Below are positions 59,771 through 63,542 of a stretch of DNA of 64,000 nt, one piece after another. Numbering within the stretch: position 1 is the stretch's first letter; every line of letters starts with the position of its first letter. A program made the translations under genes and the position numbers. Under the pieces are notes generated by a model. The model made no database searches and had not been told where the DNA came from. It saw only the letters and a program-made list of their open reading frames with translations. This stretch comes from Cerioporus squamosus (Eukaryota; Basidiomycota; Agaricomycetes; Polyporales; Polyporaceae). The stretch covers positions 93,963 through 157,962 of the forward strand of contig JABYQS010000094.1 in the NCBI GenBank assembly GCA_022592435.1. Reading direction: 5' to 3'.

Positions 59771-61602
59771 TCAACCATCGAATTCGGGCTGCGGGAAGGA
59801 TGCGCGAGCGATTTCCCATCGCCGCGCGACGTCCTCGTGGTCACGGAGAAGCTTGCGCCACTTGACGGCAATGGCCTGCGTCTTCTTGCAGACGTAGGTC
59901 GCCCCGGTCTTCTTGTAGTGGAAGTAGCCGTGGGCGTCGGGGTGCGTGAGGTCGTTGTCGAAGAACCAGAGCGCTGCGGCGGCGTCGTTATCGTCGTCTG
60001 TCTTGCGTCCGCCCTGTAGGGCATCGAGGATCTTCTGGAAGTTGAGATGTTTGCCTTCCTCGTCAGTGTACTTCGCCCAGAACACGTCTTCCGAATCGAA
60101 TCGTTCGCGTTCCGAGACTAGAAACTGGATAGATGGATCAGAACGAGTATGATGAGAAGTCACTGACTACGCACCCTCCAGTTACCCCACTTCACCCGGA
60201 CGAGGTCCCATGCGTGCTGCTTGATGCCAACTCGCTTTTTATAGAATCGCTCCCAATGTTTGATGGGAATGCCACGACCGTTGACGGTGAGGAGGTCCGA
60301 GTCGTGCCACTCCCGGAAGAGCCGCGGGAGGTCGTTGGCAAAGCTCACCTTCGGCGGACTCGGCACCTGGGTCCTGTCGAACGCGAGCTCCTCGCCGTCG
60401 AGGTCGAAGATCAGCAGGTTACCGGGCGGTATCTCCTCTCGCGGGATGGTGATGCGCGAGGTGATAAGAGGCTGAGGTGAGTGAGAGGTTGCAACAGCTT
60501 GGCAGGTGTTCGTTGGAGGTACTTGAGGAGGTACGACGAGGCTCACATCGAAGCCCCCGTTCAACGTCGTGCCGATTGTCCCGGGAACGGCGACCAGTGA
60601 AGATGACGGTGAGTACGCAAGATGAGAGCTGATGCTATTGGGGACAGAGGCGGGGTGACCCGGAGCGTGCGAGAAAGAAAAGCCGCCAATATACCGTCCA
60701 GATGAGACCATCGTCTCGAGATGGGACATCTGAGACCGCATGGCCCCAAACTGGCTGTGCAGTTCCCGGTTAATGGTGACAATCTGTCGCTCGATTCGTC
60801 GGATAGCCTGGTGATATGAAATAGAGTCAGATCTGGGACGTAGCGCGTGGGTGCGCGCGATGCCTACTTACCTTGGGTACTACCGTCTTGCTCTGCTGGT
60901 CCTTGTCTGCGCTCCCGGCATCTGCTTGTGTCTTCTCACTGATTGCTGTCCTGGTGACTGCGTCTGGACTCGTGTTGCCTGCAGGGACCTGAGCCACGGT
61001 GTCCGTCTGCGCGTTGCGCTTGCGCAAGACTGCGGTGGCCTATGACAATGTGGGAACTGGGTAGCGTTTTAGGAATCGCGTGGGCTTGACTACTGACACT
61101 CACCCACGCATCGTTCGCAGCCTCTCTGTGCTCAGACATCTGGACTATCGGCCTCGTCTCGTAACCGCCCTTCTTGGGCTGGAAGGTAAGCTCAGTTTCT
61201 CGTGCTCCGAAAACCTCGAGGGTACGCTGCGCAGTGAAGTCTTTCGCTGCGGTTCGCTTGGATATATCCCCTCGCTGACGCCCTCGCGCCGGCAAGAGTA
61301 TACTGCATTCGTTCGATCCATAGTCAGCCTGAAGCTCACGTCTGATATGCTGGCAGACGTACCTGTTCCATTCCTCCGGATTCTCCGAGAACTTGCGAAG
61401 GCGTTCAATTAACTCCGCTTGCTTGCCTGACTTCGTGAGACCAAAGGACGCCAGGTGGTTCTTCAGCTCTGCGACTTTCGGCGGCGGTTTGCTGGGACTG
61501 GTAAGCTCCTAATTGCAAAATAGCGTCGAATATTGAACTCACATCCTCAACTCAAATGTTCTGAACTGACGATCATCTCGATTGATGCTCTGACCTGGAC
61601 AT
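59771..61602 (-). CDS. SAP-domain protein with coiled coil and GCR1-like DNA-binding C-terminus
   Basis: An 8-bp first exon (ATGTCCAG, 61595-61602) splices over a 97-bp intron to 61363-61497, giving a start MSSPSKPPPK and a SAP DNA-binding motif: VAELKNHLASFGLTKSGKQA then ELIERLRKF. The next exon starts at 61302 in frame and includes RTLEVFGARETELTFQPKKG. A helix AIRRIERQIVTINRELHSQF then MSHLETMVSS looks like a short coiled coil. The C-terminal 170 residues (about 60.4-59.77 kb) contain DLPRLFREWHDSDLLTVNGR, GIPIKHWERFYKKRVG and VFWAKYTDEEGKHLNFQKIL, which resemble the GCR1_C-type DNA-binding domain seen in fungal transcription factors and some Crypton elements. The protein ends FPQPEFDG. 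It is transcribed divergently from the recombinase gene, so the two are probably coregulated. Confidence 0.7.
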
Positions 61603-61817
61603 GGCAAGGTAAGTATATCGCAATCCTTGCGCGACCTCCCTTCATTATTGGATGACATAGTGTACAAGTTAGAGAGTAGCTTGACCGAGCTCGCCCCCTG
61701 TTATTCCCTCGCCTGTGGCCTCCGATCATTCGACTAAATTAGGATTTACCCGCCTGCGGCCTCAGCCACACTGACCTGTTCTCTCTTCACTCCATCGTTA
61801 CTCGTACTTGACAACAC
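61603..61817. promoter_or_regulatory. 215-bp bidirectional promoter of the SAP/recombinase pair
   Basis: Only 215 bp separate the two divergent ATGs (61602 minus, 61818 plus). No third gene fits and no clear TATA box is visible. Shared control is inferred from the geometry. Confidence 0.5.
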
Positions 61818-63542
61818 ATGATGGCTGACCGACTCAAGGGTATCTCTGTGTCTCGGGAGACGGTCGCATGGGCCGAAATCGAGGACGACGTCGCAGCTGA
61901 AAGAGAGTCCATGGAGGCCGCCGAAGAGATCGACGATGAGCTTGCCAATGACCCATCGTATTTGCGTCCCTCCCCAACCTCAGCTCGGAAGAAAGCGAAG
62001 ACGGCGGACATAGGCAATCTTGAGAAGGCAATTGAGAAGGCATCAGAACACGTCGTTGTTCCGGGCACGGCGAACGAGTACCGCAAGTAAGCCATTTCAT
62101 TGCTCACTGCCACTTACTGGGGATCTCGGGCTGACCTTACACGCAGCCTCTGGAAGACGTTTACGGAGTTTTGCGTGGAGTATGGTTTCATTGAGGAAGA
62201 GCAGATGGCGGACACATTCTGGAAGACGCTTCCGCCGCAAACTCCGGTGTGGGTCACCGCATGGATTATGTCGAAGTACGTCAGAACGATACATTCTTTT
62301 TCCAGTAACAGGCTCACATTCCACCGATTGACAGAGCAGATGATATCGATCTCATCACTGGCAATCAGAAAGATCTCAGTATCGAGCGCGTCTCGTATGC
62401 ACGCGCCCAGAAGATGAGGGCCGCCATCAGCCACAAGTTCGGGCGTGGCTTCAAGATTGGCTCGCAGATGTGGGGTGAGCACCCCCTCCTTCCGGGCACG
62501 TTCTACGGCAACCCGTCGCTCTCTGTTGTCGTCTCGGAGTACATGATTAGCCTGCGCCGGCGGAAGGTACGCACAGCATCCTTGACCGATCCCGGGCCCA
62601 TGACCGACTTACTGATCTATTCATTCACTGTTTTAAGGTGCGTAGCGGCGGCGAGGTTGTGACAAGTGCGCGAGCAATGGACCATCTCACCATGAAGGAG
62701 CTCTACGACTACAACCGCAAGTATCCACGGGTGTCGGAGTCCCGCCCTCTCAAGCGCAAGGGCGATCACGCGTCGGAATGGGGCGGGTATAAGACGCGGG
62801 TCATGATGACAGCATCGTATACCATTTCGATGAAGTGCCTACTACGCTACGACGAAACCCTTCGCATCATGTGGCAAGATATCGAGTTCTGTAAGGTGAA
62901 TGGCCATAGCTGCGTCAGGCTCAAGCTCCCCTTTCGGAAGACGCATCAACTAGGCGGTGAGTTGGTCTACTGTCGCGCTCGTAGCCTGATGAACTGACCG
63001 TCAACAGAGATCTATCCTTTCCTGATATATGAAGACCTTGATCGTCCCTGGATGTGTCCCGTCGTAGCGCTCGCGGAGTGGTGGTTACTATGCGGCGAGA
63101 TGGGCGTCGAGAGGACTGGTTTTGTATTCCGTTCTCGCCGTCATGGCAGCGACGAGATCAGTGCCTTTGCGAATGCGCGCATGGTAAGTATGTACTGAAC
63201 AAGGATGTACCTCTCGCTCATTGCTCTTCGCAGTCAAACAAAGCATTCCTCCAGTGCTTCCGCAACAACCTCATCGACATTGGAGTGGACCCCCGCTCAT
63301 ATGGGACTCATTCCTTCCGCCGCGGAGGATGCCAATATCTCCATACTGAGCTGCGGTGGGATTTCCGCAAGATTTGCGATTGGGGAGGCTGGGCGGAAGA
63401 TTTTGATCATCCGACAACAATCTTCAAGTACCTGCTTTCATGGGTCGACAAACCCTCCGGACAACGAGAGGACTACCTTAACCCAGATCGTGAAGAGCAG
63501 GAGCCATGCTCTAGATGTGGTCGCACTTGTCCCTGCTTCTGA
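61818..63542 (+). CDS. Tyrosine recombinase (Crypton/integrase-like)
   Basis: Exons 61818-62086, 62147-62275, 62335-62566, 62638-62956, 63008-63183 and 63234-63542 join exactly to 477 residues. The N-terminus is acidic (AERESMEAAEEIDDELANDP). A SAM-like core-binding part follows, with EYRNLWKTFTEFCVEYGFIE. The catalytic domain has MKCLLRYDETLRIMWQDIEF (first Arg), KLPFRKTHQLG (Lys), GTHSFRRGGCQYL (HxxR box), KICDWGGWAEDF (Trp/His position) and a candidate nucleophile Tyr in FKYLLSW, the order of tyrosine recombinases. The C-terminus CSRCGRTCPCF looks like a small zinc knuckle. These enzymes cut and rejoin DNA through a covalent phosphotyrosine. Six intact exons suggest the gene is maintained. 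A mobile Crypton or a domesticated gene are both possible. Confidence 0.75.

Follow-up and report, generated by a model that had tools for sequence, protein, structure and literature searches.

The locus and its genes

The window, that is, the whole stretch of 64,000 nucleotides analysed from Cerioporus squamosus, lies at the end of its source contig (C933; contigs are cited below by such labels), in a genome of 54 Mb and 988 contigs. Its last 4966 bp (59035..64000, + strand) hold the left part of a mobile element: two complete genes, A and B, diverge from start positions 215 bp apart, and the 3' end of a third gene, C, follows on the far side of A. Farther to the left, the window contains a tRNA-Glu (ctc) at 8618-8690, reading frames with HELSHGLSTRLTGG at 39645-41814, which we take to be a fungalysin (M36) metallopeptidase, and reading frames with DTAGQERFRTITSSYYRGA at 43135-43974, presumably a Rab-type GTPase.

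Gene A lies on the + strand at 61818-63542 and has six exons (61818-62086, 62147-62275, 62335-62566, 62638-62956, 63008-63183 and 63234-63542), separated by GT..AG introns of 50-71 bp; the model has no internal stop and gives a protein of 477 aa. It was also intact in the other copies assessed, those on C83 and the three on C29. An earlier note on this DNA had described this six-exon gene as a tyrosine recombinase with the residue order Arg..Lys..HxxR..Trp..Tyr, and the description was borne out: R (in LLRYDE), K (RKT), HxxR (HSFRR), W (WGGW) and Y (IFKYL), presumably the catalytic residues of this enzyme class, are each conserved at 90% or more in 48 homologues. The Pfam Phage_integrase profile matched the window protein with E=0.0083, under the curated cut-off, and 7 of the 14 members of its family at E<=1, the best with 2e-5; the same profile was silent on the genome contigs although A genes are present there, because the signal is too weak exon by exon. 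As for the fold, it was assessed on the homologue P0002, whose predicted structure (mean pLDDT 79.6) matched Cre (2e-8) and XerH (7e-5) in the PDB, and also Ndc10, Flp and lambda integrase with E above 0.001. Its residues and the modelled fold of this homologue identify the product of gene A as a tyrosine recombinase. A PDB sequence search with gene A returned only one chance match (E 0.4), and a search of IMG/VR with the recombinase family returned nothing. Near its C-terminus, the protein has a CxxCxRxCxC cluster that is invariant in the 14 family members, and four of its five residues are conserved at 90% or more in the 48 relatives. No match was found to DUF3435 at E<=10, and DUF3504 was absent from the Pfam matches of the window protein.

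Gene B, on the opposite strand, spans 61602-59771 in five exons (61602-61595, 61497-61104, 61039-60872, 60807-60175 and 60124-59771) and codes for 518 aa; it is intact and lies at the distance from A that the earlier note had given. The N-terminal SAP domain proposed there is confirmed by a Pfam match over the cut-off (E=9e-8), with matches in 9 of 12 family members at E<=10, and the proposed coiled coil is compatible with the predicted model of the homologue P0161, which has long helices at 135-163 and 195-239. With Foldseek, the whole P0161 model gave no match at E<=0.001, and the further matches fell nearly all on the SAP region. The same note had seen a likeness to GCR1_C in the C-terminus of B; this was not supported, for no GCR1_C match was obtained at E<=10 in the window protein and 12 members of its family. 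Nor was there one in gene A (E<=10 for the window protein, E<=1 in 14 family members), which leaves the idea of a GCR1_C function split off into a separate gene without support; a six-frame GCR1_C search of the genome, run without a positive control, was also silent.

Regarding gene C, the window contains its 3' end only (63610..64000, - strand), because the contig stops inside the gene; this part codes for a Ser-rich tail with the motifs VIDLT, IIDLT and IIDLT. In the C83 copy, the one in which intactness was assessed, gene C has seven exons on the minus strand between A and the right end of the element, and encodes 816 aa with matches to XPG_I (2.4e-19) and XPG_N (2.6e-6); GEN1_C gave no match in this protein at E<=1. 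Its first 497 aa were best matched in the PDB by 6grb (6.9e-35) and 5cnq (1.9e-34), both named 'Nuclease-like protein' and, as we take them, Chaetomium GEN1; GEN homolog 1 (5t9j, 8.1e-13) and FEN1 chains ranked lower. VDAS, ADGP, GEAEAE, DDSDT and GCDYD of gene C align with the matching acidic positions of 6grb. These alignments show that the predicted product is an XPG-family nuclease, with acidic motifs kept, whose nearest solved structures are of the GEN1 type. Host-type GEN1 genes are found in the genome as well, with GEN1_C over the cut-off on C146, C522 and C80. The IIDLT-type motifs were considered as a hallmark of the element proteins and rejected, since 6 of 14 GEN1_C-bearing relatives also have one near the end.

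Ends and copies of the element

Homology to the other copies begins at 59031-59035 and, compared letter by letter, at 59035; the boundary is sharp and the sequence outside is unrelated. The right part of the window copy is beyond reach because the contig terminates at the window end, and the right end was defined from the junctions of an array on C29 and from the copy on C83. Full copies measure 8294 bp on C83 and, for the first one on C29, 8225 bp. The left 300 bp have 10 matches in the genome, of which nine mark copies and the tenth sits at the C690 edge, and the last 109 bp occur 9 times. All 10 left junctions begin with CTTC (59035..59038, + strand, in the window), and all 9 right ends continue with one A or G (8 A, 1 G) and then CTTC, counts in which 2 of the 10 left and 2 of the 9 right junctions are internal to the array and the right flank of C434 and C241 is common to both. 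This 4-bp direct repeat is the presumed recombination core. Close to it, the positions 59047..59063 (+ strand), GATTCGCAGTCCCTCGG, are the left arm of an imperfect 17-nt inverted repeat that has its other arm at the right end. It was picked out after the ends had been inspected, shuffled ~60-bp ends reach its score in 8 of 1000 cases, and when longer ends (300/140 bp) are compared, the best direct match is slightly ahead of the inverted one (scores of 22 and 21), so that its role as the recombinase site is a suggestion only.

Searches exon by exon located A and B in divergent arrangement on C933, C83, C29 (three times), C556, C241 and C434, and in a more distant form on C104; C93 gave pieces of A only, in a search that covered A and B exon by exon and gene C over bases 30001-67481. 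Gene C was present wherever it could be searched for, as DNA on C83, C29, C104, C612 and C282 and among the listed proteins for C556 and C434. On C29 (35877-60638), three elements stand head to tail with exact junctions, and the first and third are 99.87% identical over 6072 bp. The C104 element (42405-~50300; loci L062 and L063) is a divergent second element with relatives of A, B and C and the left end of the other copies; no right end was recognised for it. Contigs C612 and C282 start in the same repeat-rich stretch and then contain the remaining gene C and one right end each; they appear to be the right halves of two copies, and either may or may not continue the window copy.

The copies at C241:7218-15157 and C434:13506-21445 are 99.95% identical over 6011 bp. 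Recent transposition was considered for this pair and dropped because the right flank is common to both. The C434 copy has the right flank of C241 yet a different left flank, and it is therefore rearranged or misassembled; the pair may reflect a rearrangement, a haplotype difference or a misassembly.

When the flanks were joined and searched in the genome, uninterrupted sites were found for four insertions, those on C83, C29, C556 and C241. For C83, the joined flanks match C406 with 201 of 201 bases covered and two differences, of which one falls in the core and makes this empty site CATC instead of CTTC; those of the C29 array align with 201 bases of C777, where CTTC is intact and there are four differences. 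The C556 and C241 insertions lie inside repeats, of which uninterrupted copies with CTTC occur at C681 and at C434:1924-2124, respectively. No such site was found for the C434 copy or for the window copy, whose right flank lies beyond the contig end.

Multiple copies, common ends, CTTC repeats and uninterrupted sites together indicate a mobile element; copy number, short direct repeats and empty sites are what the earlier note had proposed to check. This agrees with one of the two readings of the earlier note, a mobile element, and amends it as regards the number of genes, since the two-gene unit proposed there has a third gene that is truncated in the window by the contig end.

Selection and apparent exchange between copies

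Gene A is under strong purifying selection, with a dN/dS of 0.06-0.07 between the window copy and those of C83, C29, C556 and C434, and of 0.22 against C104. For gene B, the values were 0.27-0.56 (window versus C83, C29, C556, C434 and C104), and for gene C 0.26-0.35 at a dS of 1.3-1.4 (C83 versus C29, C556 and C434); the latter comparison leaves aside C104 and the window, which has ~130 codons of repetitive tail. Because B and C evolve faster than A, the need for them is less certain.

The C83 and C29 elements are 83-99% identical per 200 bp up to ~4.5 kb, 58-73% beyond this point, gene C included, and 93% over the last 115 bp; from this mosaic, the elements seem to swap parts.

The non-coding left terminal region (59035..59304, + strand) is highly conserved: in 13 copy pairs, C104 included, identity is 95-100% per 40 bp up to position 240, 85-100% in 241-280, and down to 48% in 281-320. 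Even between elements whose recombinases are 50% alike, the left ~270 bp are ~97% identical, and the drop after ~270 bp is sharp. This pattern would suit a DNA site under strong constraint, and also copies kept alike through recombination. Two other accounts of the 270 bp were discarded. A structured RNA found no backing, with no Rfam match at E<=1 (57000-64000) and folding no better than that of shuffled sequences on either strand (z 0.59 and 0.74); a dispersed host sequence is at odds with the genome matches, 9 of 10 being at element copies and one at the C690 edge.

Relatives in other species

Many Agaricomycetes have relatives of A, 152 proteins in all (120 of which are listed and were used for linkage), and those of C comprise 26 GEN1-like proteins (P0121-P0146) among 37 hits. 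Twelve of these 26 have no precomputed GEN1_C match, all nine contig-linked ones among them: 9 of the 12 proteins without GEN1_C, and none of the 14 with it, are on a contig of equal size with a listed A or B relative (Fisher p=7e-5; 3e-4 minus two from this genome), linkage being taken here as contigs of equal size, mostly long and outside this genome from 31 kb to 3.1 Mb. The 31-kb contig is that of Polyporus arcularius. In Ganoderma adspersum, the C and A records have consecutive locus tags (V8D89_004679 and 004680), the only such case; Trametes coccinea and Earliella scabrosa each have relatives of all three genes at one and the same contig size. A tree of the first 560 aa of the C proteins placed the element-type ones in one group with a support of 99/100 (10 rows, 9 of them linked), and left P0131 (Gloeophyllum) outside.

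On the other hand, for the majority of the 120 listed A relatives, no C relative in the list sits on an equal-size contig. Of 14 B relatives, 5 share an equal-size contig with a listed A or C relative, and the other 9 do not.

Comparison with known systems

Cryptons have terminal direct repeats of 4 or 6 bp, 6 bp in most fungal CryptonF, and a circle has been proposed as their intermediate; some members have an extra gene or domain (C48 peptidase), and CryptonF recombinase proteins carry GCR1_C, according to Kojima and Jurka (2011, PMC3212892). The present element resembles a Crypton as a tyrosine-recombinase DNA transposon with short direct repeats, here CTTC, and additional genes, and would work like one. 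It has the short terminal repeats of CryptonF and differs from it in that GCR1_C was not found in the recombinase, and in that the SAP and GEN1-type nuclease genes are separate from it.

Starships have a DUF3435 captain and variable cargo; PMC12134995 describes them from Pezizomycotina, with sizes of 15 kb or more. The present element shares with them a fungal host, a tyrosine recombinase, direct repeats and additional genes, and differs in its size of 8.2-8.3 kb, its occurrence in Agaricomycetes and its lack of a DUF3435 match. It was consequently placed neither in CryptonF, for want of GCR1_C, nor in Starships, for want of DUF3435 and of their size.

A third comparison is with the integrating phaeoviruses of Ectocarpus, for which PMC13236599 describes conserved ends, a tyrosine recombinase that acts at a target homology as short as CC and, in the same genome, a gene for an A22-like Holliday junction resolvase that is discussed for replication. 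The two systems share a recombinase on very short target homology, conserved ends and, putatively in the present element, a resolvase gene in one genome, and differ in that one is a viral genome with an A22-like resolvase and the other an 8.3-kb element with a GEN1-like nuclease.

With GEN1/Yen1, gene C shares the XPG_N and XPG_I domains and the acidic motifs; unlike them, the element-type proteins have no GEN1_C match and gene C sits in a mobile element. In the open-licence literature, no paper was found on an element with a tyrosine recombinase, a GEN1-type nuclease and a SAP protein, which is not proof of absence.

Proposed mode of movement and alternative explanations

The reading to which these results most probably lead is a three-gene DNA transposon, Crypton-like and ~8.3 kb long, with A, B and C, moved by its recombinase. 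Recombination by A between the CTTC cores of the left and right ends would release a circular element, which would then integrate at another CTTC; if the target is a resident copy, the outcome would be a tandem array. Head-to-tail junctions in such arrays are the only junction form seen, no circle having been observed. The SAP protein B would probably bind the ends or chromatin and help to build the complex. Nuclease C would probably cut Holliday junctions or flaps when strand exchange stalls between sites that share ~4 bp or, alternatively, may be active during the gain of copies.

Eukaryotic tyrosine-recombinase transposons are not known to need much besides the recombinase. The part given to C is proposed tentatively: as a Holliday junction resolvase encoded by the element itself, it may work together with the recombinase, a possibility that we favour only with low confidence. 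In this view, A would start strand exchange at the 4-bp core, and C would resolve the junction when non-homology outside the core blocks the second exchange. If junctions were resolved once they had migrated between resident copies, this would also account for the ~97% identity of the left ~270 bp.

We consider it rather unlikely that this is a Crypton-type element of the usual kind, with gene C and possibly B carried as cargo that plays no part in transposition. In favour of this view, constraint is much stronger on A than on the other two genes, the identity of C83 and C29 falls at ~4.5 kb so that gene C lies in the dissimilar part, and a listed C relative is missing beside most of the listed A relatives. 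Cargo fits less well with the purifying selection on C, with its presence in every copy where it was searchable and with the single, well-supported group formed by the element-type proteins. The mosaic profile of C83 and C29 could also be expected of a chance composite, a recombinase element adjoining an unrelated nuclease-carrying one; such a composite is very improbable, for the genes lie between a single left and a single right end in C83 and in the first C29 copy, and A, B and C recur together in the divergent C104 element. The least probable explanation, and an extremely improbable one, is a domesticated host pair for DNA rearrangement, the other reading of the earlier note; the intact genes and the strong constraint on A would suit it, but it is contradicted by copies with the same ends at several loci (10 left and 9 right ends in the genome) and by the uninterrupted sites.

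In conclusion, the three-gene, Crypton-like transposon is the preferred reading; since fuller copies include a GEN1-like gene C, the means to complete recombination may be supplied by the element itself. With a SAP protein and a GEN1-type nuclease retained in so compact an element, it becomes testable whether a resolvase helps with insertion at very low target homology or with multiplication, and an 8.3-kb unit with clear bounds and uninterrupted sites in the same genome would be a practical object for that question.
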